DNA from: Opitutaceae bacterium
Lineage (GTDB): Bacteria > Verrucomicrobiota > Verrucomicrobiia > Opitutales > Opitutaceae
DNA: 64,000 bases
Direction of reading: 5' to 3'
Assembly (NCBI GenBank): GCA_005792355.1
Contig: SXSC01000065.1
Span: forward strand, 1 to 64,000
A program made the translations under genes and the position numbers. Shown piece after piece: positions 36,585-57,863 of this stretch. The notes below the pieces were generated by a model, which saw only the letters and a program-made list of their open reading frames with translations, did not search any database and had not been told where the DNA came from. Position 1 is the stretch's first letter, and every line of letters begins with the position of its first letter.

Positions 36585-39500
36585 TCACCGGAAATCGTGC
36601 GAGGCCTGGGCCGGCAGCGCGACCTCGGCCAGGGCTTCGATTTTTTCCGCCTTCACGTGGATGACGCCGTGCTGGTTCTGCAGTTTGCCGGTGATGCGCA
36701 GGGCGGGTTCCTGCGTGATGACGAGGCGGCGGGCTTCGAAGAGCTGCGGGACCACGATGACGTTGGCGATGCCGGTTTCGTCCTCGAGGCTGATGAACAT
36801 GAATCCCTTTGCCGTGCCCGGCCGCTGGCGGCAGATCACCGAGCCGGCGATCGTCAGGCGCTCGCCGTCGCGGGCGAGCGTCAGATCGGCGGCGCGCCAG
36901 GCGTCGGGGAGCCGGTCGCGGACGAGTGCCATCGGATGCGCGCCGGTGGTCAGATCGAGTCCGGTGAAATCCGCGCGGAGACGCTCGGTGAGGGTCATGG
37001 GCGCGAGGGGAGAGGGGGGATTTTCGATTTTGGAATTTTGATTTTCGATTGAGGGCGGAGAGGGCGGGAGGTTTTCTGGAGGCGAGGTGCCGCCCGCGTC
37101 CACCGAAGGCTCGGCGAAGGAGGAACCCCGGGCCGAGTGGATCTGCGGGGTGGGGGCACCCCGCCTCCATTCGGAAATCTCGCGAGTTTCCCCGTACTCG
37201 CGGAACAAGGCCTCGTCCTCCGACCAGGCGGCTTCGACCTGCCAGAGCGCGGCACGGCGGTGCGGGGCGAAGGCGTTGAGCGCGCCCACGGCGGCCAGCG
37301 CGCGGCGCTCGGTCGGATTGAACTGCGTGCGGCGCAGAAAATCGTCGAGCGAGATGAACGCCTCCCGGGCGCGCGTCGCCAGCATCGCCCGCGCGGTCGC
37401 CTCATGCAGGCCTTTCACGTAACACAGCCCGATTCGGATCGTGTCGTCGCTCTCGACGGTGCAGTTCCAGTCGGAGGCGGCGACGCACACGGGTTTCGCC
37501 TTGAGCCCGTGACGGCGGGCGTCCTGCAGGAGGGTCGCGGGCGAGTAGAAACCCATCGGCTGGTGGTTGAGCAGGCTCACGGTGAACTCGGCCGGCCGGT
37601 GGACCTTCAGCCACGTGCTCGCATAGGCGAGGAGGGCGAAGCTGAGCGCGTGTGATTCCGGAAAACCATAGGCGGCGAACGAGAGCGCGGATTCGCTGAC
37701 TTTCTTCACAACGCTCTCGTTGCGGCCATGGGCGCGCAGCGCGGTGCAGAGCCGGGCGAGGGCGCGCTGCAGCCGCTCGGTGCCCTTGGTGAAACCCATC
37801 GCGCGGCGCAGTTCTTCGGCTTCGCCACCGGTGAAATTGGCGAGCTTCATCGCCAGCTCCAGCATCTGCTCTTGAAACAGGATTACGCCCAGCGTGCGGC
37901 GGAGAATCGGGCGCACGATGTCGTCGACGCTCGGATCGATGTATTCCGGTTGCTCCAGTCCGTTGCGGCGGCGGATGAGCGGGTGGGCGAGGTTGCCGAC
38001 GATTGGGCCCGGGCGGACGATCGCGACCTGCATGGCCACGTCGTAGAAGCACGCGGGGCGCATCCGCGGCAGCGACGCCATTTGCGCGCGACTCTCGATC
38101 TGAAACACTCCGACTGTGTCGGCCCGCTGCATCGCGGCAAAGGTCGCGGGGTCATCCTGCGGGATGGTGTAGAGTTCGACCGGGTGGCCGCGGGCGGCGC
38201 AGAGCGCGAACGTGTCCTGCAAAGCGGCCATCATGCCGAGGCCGAGGAAGTCGACCTTCACGATGCCCAGATCCTCGCAGTCGTCCTTGTCCCATTGCAC
38301 GACGACGCGGCCGGGCATGGTGGCGTTTTCGAGCGGGACCACGCGGTCGAGCTGGCCCTGGCAGATCACCATGCCGCCGCTGTGCTGGCCGAGGTGGCGC
38401 GGGAGTCCGTGAATCTGCAGATAGAGCGAATGCAGCGCGGCGGCCCGCGGGTGTTGGGGGGCGATGCCCGACATCGCGAGCTGTTGCTGCAACTCGAGGG
38501 TTTCCGGAAAATCGCCGTTGGCATAGAGACCGGAAAAACGTTCAAGCGCGTCGTCGCCGAAACCGAGAACCTTGCCGACCTCGCGCACCGCGCTGCGTCC
38601 GCGATAGGTGATGACATTGGCGGTCATGGCGGCGCCGCGCGGCGCGTAGGTGGCGTAGACTTTTTGGATGATGCGTTCGCGCAATTCGCCACTCGGCAGA
38701 TCGAGATCGATGTCGGGCCACGAGGGATGTCCATCGCGACCGACGCGGCCCTCGCTCAGAAAACGCTCGAACAGGAGTTCGTGTTTGATGGGATCAACAG
38801 CGGTGATGCCGAGCGCGTAGCAGACCGCGCTGTTGGCGGCGCTGCCGCGACCCTGGACGAGAATGTCGTTTTCGCGGGCGAATTTGCAGACATCCCAGAC
38901 GATCAGGAAATAGCCGCAGAAGCCGAGTTTGGCGAGGAGCGCGAGTTCCTTGTCGAGCTGCGTGGTGATGCGCGCGGTGAGCGTGCCGTAGCGGCCGCGC
39001 GCCCCGGCGTAGGTGAGCTCGCGCAGCAGCGACTCCATCGAGTGTCCGGGTGGCGTGGGGAAGTCGGGGAAACGGTAGCCGAGGTGCTGCAGGGTGAACT
39101 CAAGCCGCTGTTCCAACCGGACGGATTCGGCGACAGCCTCCGGCAGGTCGCAGAAGAGTTCCAGCATCTCGCGGGCGGATTTGACGTGACGCTGGGAGTT
39201 GAGGGCGAGGGCGCGGCCGGCGGCATCGAGGGTGGTGTGGAGGCGCAGGCAGGTGAAGACATCGGCGACGGCGCGTTGGGCGGGGCGGGCGTAATTCACG
39301 CCGCCGGTGGCGAGGAGTGGCAGTCCGTGCGCGTCGGCGAGATCGCGGAGGAAGGCGATTTCGCGCTCCTCGCCGCGGAGACGATGGCGCTGAACTTCAA
39401 CGTAGAGCCGGTCGCGGCCGAAGATCGCGGTGAGATTTTGCAGGGCGGCGCCGGCGGCGGCAGGTCCGGCGGTGAGCCAGGCGCGGCGGACGGGGCCTTC

Positions 39501-39962
39501 CTCGTCGCCGGTGAGGGCGATGAGACCTGCGGAGTAGCGGGCGAGCTCCGGCCAGGTGGCGAAGCACGGGCGCTTGCGATCGCGGGGATCGGGGGCGGTG
39601 GGCTTGGCGCTCCGCGCCGAGCCTGACCGCGCGCGGAGCGCACGGTCCACCCCGGCGGAATCGCGTTCGGTGAGCTTCGCCTCGGTGATCAGTTGGCAGA
39701 GATTCTGGTAGCCGGTGCGCGTGGCGGCGAGGAGCGGGACGACGCTGCCGTCCTCCATCGTGATTTCGGCCCCGACGCGCGCGCGCAGTCCCGCCTCGCG
39801 TGCGGCGCCGAAAAAGCGCGGCGCACCGCAGAGGACGTCGCGGTCGAGGAGCGCCATCGCGGGCAGCCCGTGTGCGAGCGCGGCCGCCACGAGCGCCTCG
39901 GGATCAGCGGCGCCGCGCAGGAAACTGAAGGCGCTGCGCGCGTGGAGTTCGACGTAGCTCAT
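36585..39962 (-). CDS. dnaE2: Error-prone DNA polymerase III alpha subunit
   Basis: MSYVELHARSAFSFLRGAADPEALVAAALAHGLPAMALLDRDVLCGAPRFF (PHP); QGRGSAANSAVCYALGITAVDPI; HSGGMVICQG; C-terminal OB-fold. Confidence 0.95.
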   Translation of the reverse strand: MSYVELHARSAFSFLRGAADPEALVAAALAHGLPAMALLDRDVLCGAPRFFGAAREAGLRARVGAEITMEDGSVVPLLAATRTGYQNLCQLITEAKLTERDSAGVDRALRARSGSARSAKPTAPDPRDRKRPCFATWPELARYSAGLIALTGDEEGPVRRAWLTAGPAAAGAALQNLTAIFGRDRLYVEVQRHRLRGEEREIAFLRDLADAHGLPLLATGGVNYARPAQRAVADVFTCLRLHTTLDAAGRALALNSQRHVKSAREMLELFCDLPEAVAESVRLEQRLEFTLQHLGYRFPDFPTPPGHSMESLLRELTYAGARGRYGTLTARITTQLDKELALLAKLGFCGYFLIVWDVCKFARENDILVQGRGSAANSAVCYALGITAVDPIKHELLFERFLSEGRVGRDGHPSWPDIDLDLPSGELRERIIQKVYATYAPRGAAMTANVITYRGRSAVREVGKVLGFGDDALERFSGLYANGDFPETLELQQQLAMSGIAPQHPRAAALHSLYLQIHGLPRHLGQHSGGMVICQGQLDRVVPLENATMPGRVVVQWDKDDCEDLGIVKVDFLGLGMMAALQDTFALCAARGHPVELYTIPQDDPATFAAMQRADTVGVFQIESRAQMASLPRMRPACFYDVAMQVAIVRPGPIVGNLAHPLIRRRNGLEQPEYIDPSVDDIVRPILRRTLGVILFQEQMLELAMKLANFTGGEAEELRRAMGFTKGTERLQRALARLCTALRAHGRNESVVKKVSESALSFAAYGFPESHALSFALLAYASTWLKVHRPAEFTVSLLNHQPMGFYSPATLLQDARRHGLKAKPVCVAASDWNCTVESDDTIRIGLCYVKGLHEATARAMLATRAREAFISLDDFLRRTQFNPTERRALAAVGALNAFAPHRRAALWQVEAAWSEDEALFREYGETREISEWRRGAPTPQIHSARGSSFAEPSVDAGGTSPPENLPPSPPSIENQNSKIENPPSPLAPMTLTERLRADFTGLDLTTGAHPMALVRDRLPDAWRAADLTLARDGERLTIAGSVICRQRPGTAKGFMFISLEDETGIANVIVVPQLFEARRLVITQEPALRITGKLQNQHGVIHVKAEKIEALAEVALPAQASHDFR
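37012..37170. repeat. Dispersed-repeat sequence carried in frame within dnaE2
   Basis: Contains GATTTTCGATTTTGGAATTTTGATTTTCGATT and the CACCGAAGGCTCGGCGAAGGAGG core (reverse relative of the CTTCGCCAAGCCTTCGG core at 7503 and 17591) plus GCGGGGTGGGGGCACCCCGC; encodes RRGAPTPQIHSARGSSFAEPSVDAGGTSPPENLPPSPPSIENQNSKIENPPSPL. Confidence 0.7.
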
Positions 39963-39965
39963 GAG

Positions 39966-40086
39966 ACGACGGGACTACGGACCACGGACGACGGACAACG
40001 GGACTACAGGACGACGGACCACGGACGACAGACGGCGGACGACAGGACAACGGGACACGACGGGACGACGGACCACGGACGACGGG
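39966..40086. repeat. Tandem-like GGACCACGGACGACGG repeat tract between imuB and dnaE2
   Basis: GGACCACGGACGACGG at 39979-39994 and 40070-40085, GGACCACGGACGACA at 40016-40030, filled with related ACGACGGGAC words. Confidence 0.85.
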
Positions 40087-40138
40087 TTCATGGTCTCGTA
40101 GTCCTGCAGTCCAGTGGTCCAGTAGCCCAGTGGTCCCT

Positions 40139-41845
40139 TTAGTCATACTCCCCCTCGATGAACCAGGCTTCGCCGAGGCGGAGCAGGCGGTAGAGGCCGC
40201 CGCCGTCGGCGAGGGCGATGTCCCACTCGGTGCGTGCCCACGCGCGATCGGTCTGCCACCAGTCGCCGCTGCCGCACCATGGGCCGCGCACCTGGGTGAT
40301 CGCGCCGTGAAAGTGTTCGGTCCACACATAGGTGGGCTGCCGCTCCGTCGGGGTGAACTCGAGGTTTGCGGGAAGCGGCGGCCGGAAACGCCGCAGCGGC
40401 AGACCACACGGCGGATGCACCGGCGGCGCAGCGGCGGGTGGGACGACGGCGGGTGGCGGGGCGAGTTTTATGGCGTCGGGGCGGTGGGTGTCCTGGGGTT
40501 GCGGGGTGCCGACGCGATCGGCGCCGACGAGGGCGGAGACGCGGGCGAGCGTTTCCGCGAAACCGTGCGGGTCGCGGAGGCCGGTGTCGAAGAGACCCTG
40601 CTGGCGCACGAGCGGGCGGACGGGAGTGGCGTGCAGTTGCAGGCCGATGATCGGCGAGTCGGTGTGCAGCGACTCGAGGTGGGTGTGGAGGGTGCGGAAG
40701 AGGATTCCGGCGTCGGCGGTGGGTTCGGGCAGGCGGAAAGTGCGCGCGCAGGGTGGGCCGCGGTCGAGGTCGAGGGTGAGGGCCAGTTCGGCGGCGACGA
40801 CCTGGGCGGTGCGCAGCTCGAGGGCGAGGCGGTCGAGAAAACGGCGCAAAATGAAGAGGAGCGGCTCGAGCGTTTCGACGGCTTCCTCAAATTTCATCGC
40901 CGCGGAAAATTCCCGGGTGGGGGTGACGAGGTAGAGCGGCCGGGGCTCGCCGCCGGTGGCGCGCCGCCAGAGCGCGAGCCCGGCGGTGCCGAAACGGCGC
41001 ACGATTTCGTCGCGCGGCAGGGCGGTGAAGTCGCCGAGCGTGCGCAGGCCCCAGCTGGCGAAGACGGCCGCGAGTTCGGGCGAGGGATCGGCGGTGGCCA
41101 GCGGGAGCGGGGCGAGGAAGGATTTTTCCTCTTCGCGGGTGAGGAGGAGGATGTCCAATCGTTCTCGCTCCTCGTTCTCGTTATTCGTTCTCGTCTCCGG
41201 GAGAGGTGCGAAATCGGCCCATTCCTGTTCCTCGTGCTCGTGCCTCGTGCTCGCGGTTGAGAGAGAACGAGAACGATTACGAGAAAGAGAAGGAGGAGGA
41301 TCCGGCGGGGCGGGTTCGCAGAGGAGGGGCTCGGCGGTGGCGGGGTTTTCTTCGGAAAGAGAACGAGAAAGATTACGTGAACGGTTGAATTGCGCGTGGC
41401 GCGCGGCATACAGCGCGAGCAGGGGGGTGCGCGCGATCCCGGCGGTGGCGGGAAGGGCGAGGGTCGTGAGCTGAGCGATCGCGGCCTGCGCCGCGGGCAG
41501 GTGGCGGGCCGGTTCGGTGCCCTTGAGATCGATGGTACAGACGCCGGGCGCGGTATCTTCGATTGCGGGTGCGAGGGTGAAGCTCACGGCGAGGAGCGCG
41601 GCGCGGGCGTCGGCTTCGGCGGCGGGTTGCGGCGTGCGGATGAGGAGGGTGGGGCAGCGGGCGACGGCGTGGGGCGCGGTCATGCCGGGTTCGACGCCGG
41701 CGGCGTGCGCCGCGCCGTTGACGGCGAGCACGAGCGATTTCTTCCCGGTGCTGGCGAACAGCGCGGCGGGATGCGCGGCCGAGCCGGGCTCGGTGCGGAG
41801 CACGGCCTGCAGGGCGAAATCGGCGAGATGAAGGACGGCGAACAT
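40139..41845 (-). CDS. imuB: ImuB-type Y-family DNA polymerase-like protein
   Basis: MFAVLHLADFALQAVLRTEPGSAAHPAALFASTGKKSLVLAVNGAAHAAGVEPGMTAPHAVARCP... SWGLRTLGDFTALPRDEIVRRFGTAG; adjacent to imuA and dnaE2. Confidence 0.92.
   Translation of the reverse strand: MFAVLHLADFALQAVLRTEPGSAAHPAALFASTGKKSLVLAVNGAAHAAGVEPGMTAPHAVARCPTLLIRTPQPAAEADARAALLAVSFTLAPAIEDTAPGVCTIDLKGTEPARHLPAAQAAIAQLTTLALPATAGIARTPLLALYAARHAQFNRSRNLSRSLSEENPATAEPLLCEPAPPDPPPSLSRNRSRSLSTASTRHEHEEQEWADFAPLPETRTNNENEERERLDILLLTREEEKSFLAPLPLATADPSPELAAVFASWGLRTLGDFTALPRDEIVRRFGTAGLALWRRATGGEPRPLYLVTPTREFSAAMKFEEAVETLEPLLFILRRFLDRLALELRTAQVVAAELALTLDLDRGPPCARTFRLPEPTADAGILFRTLHTHLESLHTDSPIIGLQLHATPVRPLVRQQGLFDTGLRDPHGFAETLARVSALVGADRVGTPQPQDTHRPDAIKLAPPPAVVPPAAAPPVHPPCGLPLRRFRPPLPANLEFTPTERQPTYVWTEHFHGAITQVRGPWCGSGDWWQTDRAWARTEWDIALADGGGLYRLLRLGEAWFIEGEYD
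41157..41385. repeat. GAACGAGAACGATTACGAGAA-type repeat carried in frame within imuB
   Basis: GAGAGAACGAGAACGATTACGAGAAAGAGA (41261-41290), AAAGAGAACGAGAAAGATTACGTGAACG (41356-41383), inverted CGTTCTCGCTCCTCGTTCTCGTTATTCGTTCTCGTC (41160-41195); encodes NRSRNLSRSLSEE...SLSRNRSRSLSTASTRHEHEEQEW...TRTNNENEERERL. Confidence 0.8.
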
Positions 41846-41860
41846 GGAGCAGGACGTTTC

Positions 41861-41994
41861 GGAGATCTTGAAATCGGGCATCGGGCATCGGGAAATTTGC
41901 AATGCCCGGTAACGTCGGCCGAATGGGTTTACCGTTCCGGGATGCGTCGGTTTGAAAATTCCGAGATTTTAGATGCCCGATTTCACGATTTCCG
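41861..41994. repeat. Inverted GAAATCGGGCATC repeats in the imuA-imuB gap
   Basis: GGAGATCTTGAAATCGGGCATCGGGCATCGGGAAATT (41861-41897) versus AGATGCCCGATTTCACGATTTCCG (41971-41994). Confidence 0.65.
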
Positions 41995-42035
41995 AAAACC
42001 TTCGGTTGCGGTTGCCGCGGTGCGAAAAATGCAGG

Positions 42036-42716
42036 CTAACTGGCGGCGGCGGCGGGTTGCTGCCGCTGGCGTTGGAGCAGGGGCGTGAGTGCGGCGGTGA
42101 GGGCCGGGCGCTCGCGGTCGAGCGCGGCGACGATGTGGAGCGTGGCGAGTGCGAAGCGGACCTGGGCGCTGGGCACGGTGGCGCGCGGAGTTATGACGAC
42201 GAATGCGAGTTCGGCGGATTCGACGGCGCGTTGCAGGCGGTACCATTGCGTCGAGGGGATGCGGCGCAGATCGGCGGCGGGGGCGCGGCGGAGATCGAGG
42301 ATGACGAGTCCGAGATTGGCGTCGCGCGCGAGGAGATCGGCGGCGTGGAGCGCGCCCGCCGTCGCGGAAGCTTTGGCGGACAGAATGATCGTGGTGGCAC
42401 CGCGGACCCAGACCAGATGAGCGAGCAGATCGTCGGCGAACGAGGAGGGATCAAACGAGTCGGTGCTGTCGATCAACGCGACCCGCGTGCGGGTGACGCG
42501 GGTGACGGCGAGCAGCTGGCCAATGAGGAGTTGCCCGCCGCAGCTCGGTGCGGCGCAGACGATCTCGGTGATGGCGCCGAGGGGGAGGCCGCCGATGGCG
42601 TCATCGAGCGAAGGGATGCCTGTGGGCAGCACGCTCGACGCCGTGCGGGGCACGGAGGGGAAGCGTGCGGCGAGCAGGTGTCGGAGCGCCGTGAGCTTTT
42701 CGGGCGCGGAGGGCAT
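42036..42716 (-). CDS. imuA: ImuA-type RecA-like protein
   Basis: LTALRHLLAARFPSVPRTASSVLPTGIPSLDDAIGGLPLGAITEIVCAAPSCGGQLLIGQLL, the ImuA/SulA-like N-terminus; located directly upstream of imuB. Confidence 0.88.
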   Translation of the reverse strand: MPSAPEKLTALRHLLAARFPSVPRTASSVLPTGIPSLDDAIGGLPLGAITEIVCAAPSCGGQLLIGQLLAVTRVTRTRVALIDSTDSFDPSSFADDLLAHLVWVRGATTIILSAKASATAGALHAADLLARDANLGLVILDLRRAPAADLRRIPSTQWYRLQRAVESAELAFVVITPRATVPSAQVRFALATLHIVAALDRERPALTAALTPLLQRQRQQPAAAAS

Positions 42717-42727
42717 GGGAAAGGGAA

Positions 42728-43029
42728 GTCGGAGGACGGATGTCAGAGGCCGGAGGCCGGATGTCAGAGGTCGGAAGCCAGAGGACGGAAGCTGGAGGAC
42801 GGAGGTCGGATGACAGAGGACGGCGGGGAAAAGGCAGTTGAACCACTAATGAACACTAATGGACACTGATGTCAGGGGACGGGGTGCTAGAGTCCTTGAA
42901 CGCCCAAACTTGGTGTGAACATGTCAAGTTTCCGGGAAGTCCCGTGGTCTCTTGGTCTTAGCCGGAGCCTCGTTGGTTTGGAGCTGGCCTCTGACCTCTG
43001 GCTTCCGTCCTCCGGCTTCCTGCTTCAGG
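42728..43029. repeat. CGGATGTCAGAGGNCGGA tract with inverted copy in the lexA-imuA gap
   Basis: CGGATGTCAGAGG at 42737 and 42758, CGGATGACAGAGGACGG at 42807; GGAAGCCAGAGG (42773-42784) inverted as CCTCTGGCTTCC (42995-43006); also CACTAATGAACACTAATGGACACTGATG at about 42844. Confidence 0.8.
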
Positions 43030-43639
43030 TAAACGCGCGCAGGAGGCCGACCATCACGCCCTGGATGATGAGTTCGGTGGCGGGCACGAGATCGGGGTAA
43101 CGCGGATTCTCGGCGCGGAGAAACGGTTGGCCGCGCTGCACGAGGAAGCGTTTCAGGGTGGACTCGCCGTCGATGAGGGCGGCCACGATATCGTGAGGGC
43201 GCGGTTCGCGTTGGGCGAGGAAGACAATGTCGCGGTCGAGGATGCTGGCGTTGATCATCGAGTCGCCGCGGACGCGCAGGGCGAAGAGTTTCGCGTTGGG
43301 GCGGACGCCGAGCGAGGTGGTGTCGACCGAGATGTAGCTGTCGGGTTCCTGCACGGCCTCGACGGGCAGGCCGGCGGGGATGGTGCCGTAGAGGGGGATC
43401 TCGGCGAGGGCGCCGCGGCGCGGGTGGGATTGCGGGAGGAGGCCGCGGGCCTTGCCCTCGAGGCGGCGGAGCGCGCCTTTTTCGATGAGGGCGTCGACAT
43501 GGCGTTTGATGCCGAAGGGGCTCGCGAGCCCGAAGTGCGCCTGGATCTCGCGCAGGGAGGGTGACACTCCCTGCTGCCGGTGGTGCGCGTGGATGTACTC
43601 GAGGACCTGTTGCTGGCGATCGGTGAGAGGTTCGCTCAT
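43025..43639 (-). CDS. lexA: LexA repressor
   Basis: MSEPLTDRQQQVLEYIHAHHRQQGVSPSLREIQAHFGLASPFGIKRHVDALIEKGALRR... VRGDSMINASILDRDIVFLAQ. Confidence 0.95.
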   Translation of the reverse strand: MSEPLTDRQQQVLEYIHAHHRQQGVSPSLREIQAHFGLASPFGIKRHVDALIEKGALRRLEGKARGLLPQSHPRRGALAEIPLYGTIPAGLPVEAVQEPDSYISVDTTSLGVRPNAKLFALRVRGDSMINASILDRDIVFLAQREPRPHDIVAALIDGESTLKRFLVQRGQPFLRAENPRYPDLVPATELIIQGVMVGLLRAFT

Positions 43640-43641
43640 AG

Positions 43642-43655
43642 TGTTCAGGTGAACA
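43642..43655. promoter_or_regulatory. LexA (SOS) box at the lexA start
   Basis: TGTTCAGGTGAACA = TGTTC-N4-GAACA palindrome, 2 bp upstream of the lexA ATG. Confidence 0.75.
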
Positions 43656-43685
43656 CATCCGCCGGGAAAAGCAACTCCGCGTTTA

Positions 43686-43907
43686 TCAGCGGGGGAAACG
43701 CCGGTCGAAATCGTCGTGCGTGCCGATCCAGAACCAAAGCCAGTCGTCGCCGTAGCGTCGGGCTGCAGCGCGATAATTGCGCGTGACCCGCACTGACCCG
43801 AAACGCACATCGCTTTTCAATCGCTCAAGCTGCAGACCCGGGTGGGCGGGATTTGCGGCAAACCTCCGATGGGCCTCGCGGGCGGCGGCACGGATTTCAG
43901 GAGGCAA
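43686..43907 (-). CDS. ParE/HigB-like toxin, start uncertain (possible 5' frameshift)
   Basis: ...TPEFWQLYHDLPPEIRAAAREAHRRFAANPAHPGLQLERLKSDVRFGSVRVTRNYRAAARRYGDDWLWFWIGTHDDFDRRFPR; similarity extends upstream of the ORF-track start to TSRGTPEFWQLYHD without a standard start codon. Confidence 0.6.
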   Translation of the reverse strand: MPPEIRAAAREAHRRFAANPAHPGLQLERLKSDVRFGSVRVTRNYRAAARRYGDDWLWFWIGTHDDFDRRFPR

Positions 43908-57137: not shown

Positions 57138-57221
57138 GAGGACGGGCGGTTGGAGAAAGATCGGGGAACGAGGAAGGCGAAGGAGGCTGAGGGCAACTCT
57201 TTGGTCGCGACGATTTCAGTG

Positions 57222-57299
57222 TCGTTCTCGTTCCTCGTCCTCCTTATCGTTCTCTCAATTCCGCGAGAACGAGGAACGATTACGAGAACGAGGAACGAT
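57222..57299. repeat. GAACGAGGAACGATTACGAGAACGAGG inverted repeat, related to the tract inside imuB
   Basis: TCGTTCTCGTTCCTCGTCCTCCTTATCGTTCTC (57222-57254) and GCGAGAACGAGGAACGATTACGAGAACGAGGAACGA (about 57263-57299). Confidence 0.8.
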
Positions 57300-57375
57300 G
57301 AAAAGCGGATGGCACCTTTGTCTGCAGTTGCCGCGTTTGGTAACTTCCAAGCTAGTGTGCCGACCGCAAAGTAGC

Positions 57376-57451
57376 GTGACAAGTAGCGGCGAGCGCCAGC
57401 GAGTGGAGCGCACCGGTGGTCCACTCGCTGGCGCTCGCAGCTACACGTCAC
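57376..57451. repeat. Near-perfect long hairpin (19-bp perfect stem)
   Basis: GTGACaaGTAGCggCGAGCGCCAGCGAGTGGA-gcgcaccggtgg-TCCACTCGCTGGCGCTCGcaGCTACacGTCAC. Confidence 0.85.
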
Positions 57452-57863
57452 GAAAGTTATTGGTCGCGCCACTAGCGCGCCGCCTTCTGCTTGACCTTCT
57501 TTTTGGTCGCGGCGGGTTCGTCGCCCGCATCGGCGGTGCCCGCGCCATTGTGCGGTGCATTGTGGGTGGGAAGCCACTTGGCGAGCTCGACCTTGGTGCG
57601 GGCGAACTCCGGTTGCGCGGCGAGGCCCAAGCATGATAGGGAACGGGAAAAGGCGGGAAACGGGGACATCACGGGGAAAAAGACGAACGAGGCGGGGCGT
57701 TGGATACAGACGGACGGCTGAGGCGGGACCAATTCTGGATGGAGACTGACTCTATCCGTGCCGATCCGTGGCATCCGTGGTGAGGATTGACGGCCCTCCT
57801 TGGGATGCGACTCCTGGGAAATACCATGGCCAGGGGGACAAATGCGGCTCAGCCTTCCCGGAC

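Follow-up and report, generated by a model that had tools for sequence, protein, structure and literature searches.

In-frame arms of a dispersed, normally intergenic palindromic repeat in the ImuB linker of an Opitutaceae bacterium

How does a repeat that is dispersed between the genes of a bacterium come to encode part of a conserved protein? The question is raised by an imuB gene in a window of 64,000 nucleotides, the whole stretch of DNA analysed here, from an 8.4 Mb Opitutaceae assembly (416 contigs, ~5% contamination). The product matches Pfam IMS (9e-13) and IMS_C (7e-8), and the fold matches of its AlphaFold2 model are Y-family polymerases in the PDB; on these domain and model grounds it is assigned as a Y-family polymerase-like subunit of the SOS mutasome. 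The gene lies in a cassette of normal order, lexA - putative imuA - imuB - dnaE2 (Table 1), in which the putative imuA product gave no Pfam match, and the named relatives of the protein are encoded in Opitutaceae/Opitutae MAGs. Quasi-periodic intergenic sequences are also seen in the operon region, at 39962-40130, 41882-42035 and 42720-42860 (ACGGACCACGGACGACGG; ATCGGGCATCGGGAAAT; GGTCGGAGGACGGAGG; ACTAATGAACACTAATGG).

Table 1. Features of the imuB cassette and of the repeats in the window.
Feature	Position	Strand	Basis
imuB, 568 aa from likely start ATG at 41845	40139..41845	-	ORF; Pfam IMS, IMS_C; AF2 model
dnaE2	36585..39962	-	Pfam DNA_pol3_alpha, PHP and others
putative imuA, assigned by position only	42036..42716	-	ORF
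lexA	43025..43810	-	Pfam LexA_DNA_bind and Peptidase_S24
palm/fingers-to-thumb linker of ImuB (palm/fingers to ~residue 151, thumb from ~240), grown to ~90 aa	41125..41395	-	orthologue alignments; pLDDT
arm A, encodes ETRTNNENEERERLD	41157..41197	+	DNA matches; family k-mers
hairpin, arms B (41227-41258) and C (41261-41293), encodes SLSRNRSRSLSTASTRHEHEEQE	41221..41293	+	nhmmer 7.3e-6; whole-genome DNA matches
arm D, encodes NRSRNLSRSLS	41355..41385	-	also in sister species G006
DnaE2 linker, 65 aa	36998..37193	-	15-28 aa in most orthologues
intergenic copy, full hairpin	57222..57299	+	DNA fold z = -4.1; whole-genome matches

The repeat-bearing segment, 41157-41385 on the minus strand, corresponds to ImuB codons ~152-237 and falls in the linker. 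This linker is hypervariable across orthologues, from 14 aa in the shortest to ~50-90 aa in the longest with little sequence in common, and many orthologues keep one of 14-20 aa. In the AlphaFold2 model, built with 29 sequences, the domains on either side mostly exceed a pLDDT of 90 and residues 186-221 fall below 50, which is consistent with a disordered loop; residues 186-221 are taken as such on the strength of this prediction.

The sequence-only reading had described a low-complexity, in-frame segment of ImuB that was formed by one repeat and matched an intergenic inverted repeat elsewhere in the window. This account of the peptide and of the DNA is borne out, the Pfam domains back the ImuB assignment, and the match is real, whole-genome and profile searches placing both sequences in one family. 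A repeat is therefore present, but it comprises four arms of one dispersed palindromic family and not a single unit. On the coding strand these are arm D (AACCGTTCACGTAATCTTTCTCGTTCTCTTTC), an ordinary spacer, the hairpin (arms C and B flanking CTCTCTCAACCGCGAG), a further spacer and arm A (GAGACGAGAACGAATAACGAGAACGAGGAGCGAGAACGATTG); the hairpin loop, GCGGTTGAGAG, resembles the family consensus loop GCCGGATTGAGAG. In a genome sample enriched for loci with this family, 28 of the 218 12-mers of the 229-nt imuB segment are present in at least three intergenic loci; 2000 random 229-nt coding segments averaged 0.36 such 12-mers and reached 11 at most.

Among the orthologues examined, most lack the segment, and only a sister species has it in common (G006; JACQWL records L116 and L152, with identical linkers): its linker holds arm D, with an in-frame length difference of 6 nt, and a related hairpin. 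Two alternatives bear on these observations. Local slippage and inverted duplication within imuB would make the likeness to the intergenic family one of convergence; the simple units of about 6 nt, and the difference of one such unit in the sister species, are in keeping with this. We nevertheless consider such an origin in situ unlikely, as the central hairpin keeps a family-like loop and scores as a family member, the segment has its 28 12-mers in common with intergenic loci, and other species carry families of their own genome in the ImuB linker (see below). The second alternative, a repeat-induced chimera of the assembly, is suggested by the fragmentation and contamination given above and by the sister imuB gene, the linker of which coincides with the junction of two contigs. 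It is very improbable: the reading frame is intact across all four arms with ImuB sequence on both flanks, arm D stands at the same place in the sister species, and the order of the cassette is normal.

Searches of the whole genome gave 31 matches to the imuB segment and 52 to the intergenic copy (57218-57302), counting strands separately, and a profile search over 720 kb found 40 non-overlapping loci, one of which is the ImuB hairpin (E = 7e-6). The repeat, at about 40 loci in the 8.4 Mb genome, is thus not confined to imuB. The unit is ~80 bp long (working consensus ATCGTTCTCGTTCCTCGTTCTCGTAATCGTTCTCTCAATCCGGCGAGAACGAGGAACGATTACGAGAACGAGAACGAT), with imperfect arms of ~25-34 nt built from ~6-nt units resembling AACGAG, AACGAT or TTACGAG, and the consensus frame that corresponds to the ImuB reading frame is open, without stops. 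About half of the copies sit within a larger conserved block of ~190 bp, and the imuB copy shows the palindrome only. The palindrome forms the core of this intergenic block (GCGACGATTTTCGGAATGCACCA ... CCCTTCGGTTGCGGTTGCCGCG), for example at loci L025, L029 and L017. The intergenic copy in the window is adjoined at 57350-57460 by a GTAG-type palindrome pair (GTAGCGGCGAGCGCCAGCGAGTGG...CCACTCGCTGGCGCTCGCAGCTAC), 12-mers of which recur in about 20 of the sampled intergenic bins. The family was found in 51 of 150 genomes and in 24 of the 49 sampled genera of Opitutaceae; outside this bacterial family, the sampled genomes of the class gave three weak matches only (E about 1e-4). An Rfam scan of 41000-41500 returned nothing, and we found nothing on the family in the literature on dispersed repeats of Verrucomicrobia or Opitutaceae. 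Phage and plasmid collections gave no match to the element, so neither a phage nor a plasmid source is indicated.

The location of the copies relative to genes was assessed from the approximate calls of a custom hexamer-based gene finder, for which the host genome served as training set (coding fraction 86%). Clusters were counted by a k-mer method, single-arm nhmmer searches being too insensitive for counts. Of 36 clusters in the host genome, counted in 1.26 Mb of the 8.4 Mb that was partly picked for holding the family, 33 are intergenic, one lies across a gene edge and two are within a gene, both in imuB. Elsewhere, in 40 stretches from about 30 genomes, 45 of 46 clusters lie between genes; the remaining one sits at a gene edge, and no cluster falls within a gene. 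Reversed sequences, run as a control, gave no matches to the focal family. The in-gene cases found are this imuB and that of the sister species only; the family is an intergenic one, and imuB is the exception. These counts divide the earlier likening of the segment to palindromic elements that insert into ORFs. A dispersed palindrome does lie in frame, in a predicted disordered loop of an otherwise normal ImuB, but insertion into ORFs is not its habit, since nearly all loci are intergenic and imuB is the sole confident gene match. The parallel drawn was with the Rickettsia palindromic elements (RPE-1 and others), which lie within ORFs with the frame kept. They come from a different phylum, and the likeness is one of behavior: the focal palindrome is likewise dispersed in the genome, and likewise in frame in a conserved protein gene while absent from most orthologues. 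RPEs, however, enter many genes, a spread that the focal family does not show.

Neither a target-site duplication nor a mobilizing enzyme was found for the focal family. The 23 Y1_Tnp (RAYT-type) genes of the genome were considered as mobilizers; at the 12 inspected the motif was at about background, and copies, which in RAYT-associated REPs flank such a gene, were not evident beside it.

The ImuB linkers of related species hold other repeats, which the earlier reading had not seen. The linker of G016, identical in JAUSID (L108, searched as G172), contains a AACCCAGA heptamer array, and this pattern has 293 overlapping sites in G172, 13 in the focal genome and 0-1 in the other four genomes. 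The sister species G006 also has a CTCAGCT heptamer array in its linker, with 47 pattern sites in its genome, and the CTCAGCT family is commoner in G170. Two opposed GTAG REPs lie in the JACPIT linker (L112, G170), with 42 BLAST matches genome-wide; a related REP pattern has 62 sites in G170 and 14 in G171. One GTAG REP, with 14 pattern sites, lies in that of PNJQ (L110, G171), and GTAG...CTAC dimers were seen by eye in that of PLOH (L123). The linkers of L118 and L124 look like low-complexity arrays of CTTTCTC type and were left out of the dispersed-repeat cases. In ImuB linkers, 2.6 kb contain 5 perfect hairpins with a stem of at least 8, which come from three lineages; this is 1.95 per kb, compared with 0.34 over the remainder of ImuB and 0.21 in other coding sequences. 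The ImuB linker thus carries unrelated, genome-specific in-frame repeats in other Opitutales too and is a site on which repeats land recurrently. With their period of 7, the AACCCAGA and CTCAGCT arrays are reminiscent of the cyanobacterial STRR (short tandemly repeated repetitive) heptanucleotide sequences, which are dispersed short-period arrays; the focal family differs from STRR in being an inverted repeat with a loop.

In two genomes, at L281:3062-3182 and G172:C249:16164-16205, the repeat type of the linker was also observed near the imuB start, in what appears to be the gap that separates this gene from imuA. The imuB gene of MAG M30B9 (L142:4001-5759) has frameshifts, one in the N-terminal part and one in the linker, and is either a pseudogene or an assembly error; the palindrome CGGGCTCACCGAGCCCGG is found in its imuB and dnaE2 linkers alike.

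In-frame repeats are present in other genes too. In 1.26 Mb of the focal genome, dispersed 12-mers at a strict threshold marked 242 intergenic and 7 in-gene segments (reversed control, 0), at least two of the seven being in weak ORFs. Among the in-gene segments are ones in rlmN and in dnaE2 of the imuB operon, the lengthened linker of which has a dispersed GGAGGCGGGGTGCCC-type palindrome at 37144-37170. The window having been selected on account of imuB, the imuB and dnaE2 cases are biased as a sample. 12-mers related to the palindrome at 37144-37170 (GGGGTGCCC-type) occur in ~15 intergenic bins, and a ATCGAAAATC array is seen in the linker at 37018-37052. The focal RlmN (L053:7703-8866, G000:C230) has 39 residues where PDB 6fz6 has 4, about 35 extra; the insert contains a TGTCACGTAATACGTGACA palindrome that is present between genes as well. 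Relative to solved structures, the dihydrolipoamide dehydrogenase (lpd) of G172 has an extra SEPKTQNSEPKTQNAKP heptamer-array insert and the UvrA of G170 an extra REP-dimer insert of about 36 aa. The loci of these two inserts, in two other Opitutales genomes, are L265:2017-3486 and L287:5082-7499, respectively.

Some of this was known, as the earlier reading had also missed. According to the main text of Di Nocera et al. (2013; PMC3733652), GTAG REPs are hairpins of 20-40 bp, with stems mostly of 6-9 bp, that are mostly intergenic, with some in genes; GTAG and CGTC REPs within ORFs are most often found in Opitutus terrae and R. conorii. O. terrae has the highest number of intragenic GTAG repeats, dimers of which encode 20-30 aa. 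Both its uvrA genes carry REPs, as do DnaE2 genes of species that the main text does not name, so that paper already describes in-frame REPs both for DnaE2 and for genes of O. terrae, uvrA among them. The inserts of L112, L110 and L123 look to be of this kind. Judged by its sequence, the focal family does not appear to be a GTAG-type REP: its consensus lacks the terminal GTAG, and its unit of about 80 bp with long imperfect arms is outside the REP hairpin size. What is added here is a non-REP family, ImuB as a host, which the main text of PMC3733652 does not mention, and one site in a protein with several unrelated repeat types.

The repeats may be selected. Their peptides, Arg/Ser-rich and then Glu/Asn/Arg-rich, could alter the ImuB-DnaE2 mutasome, for example in DNA contact or turnover, and so give mutator-like behavior. 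Repeats stand in ImuB and DnaE2 of the same operon, recur in several lineages and reach UvrA, and the main text of PMC3733652 speculates on mutator effects of REPs in DnaE2 and repair genes; it also suggests that an insert might be neutral where a linker is flexible. Such adaptive decoration is nonetheless improbable, given that the inserted peptides have no evident sequence pattern in common between lineages, that many orthologues keep a linker of 14-20 aa and that lpd and rlmN, which are not repair genes, carry repeats as well. In a bolder form, the linker of ImuB, with that of DnaE2, would be a selected hot spot that recruits each lineage's dispersed repeat and so remodels the SOS mutasome and the mutation rate; this we find quite unlikely.

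We consider it probable that a dispersed, normally intergenic Opitutaceae palindrome entered the ImuB palm-thumb linker in frame and is tolerated there, the linker acting as a low-constraint sink. The repeats would spread between genes; insertions within genes would mostly be lost, and in-frame ones in disordered loops would survive. Tolerance in the disordered loop is the most likely case, and the repeat would persist in imuB because the linker tolerates changes of length and sequence, because the consensus has no stops in the frame used, and because units of ~6 nt can later be gained or lost without a frameshift. Since the linker holds other repeat families in relatives, it would act as a sink for whichever repeat a given genome has active. 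Among the orthologues, at most ~73% identical, there was no close relative with an unoccupied imuB site, so that we infer arrival by insertion from elsewhere in the genome, as we do neutrality and the way in which the repeat moved. The linker has four arms, more than one hairpin inserted once would leave, and this counts against the explanation that we prefer.

Taken together, these results show that in-frame repeat capture, known for GTAG/CGTC REPs, takes in several unrelated types of repeat in Opitutales. They signal to annotators that repeat DNA can account for a portion of a conserved protein, and they make testable the question of whether repeats in repair genes are tolerated noise or change mutagenesis.
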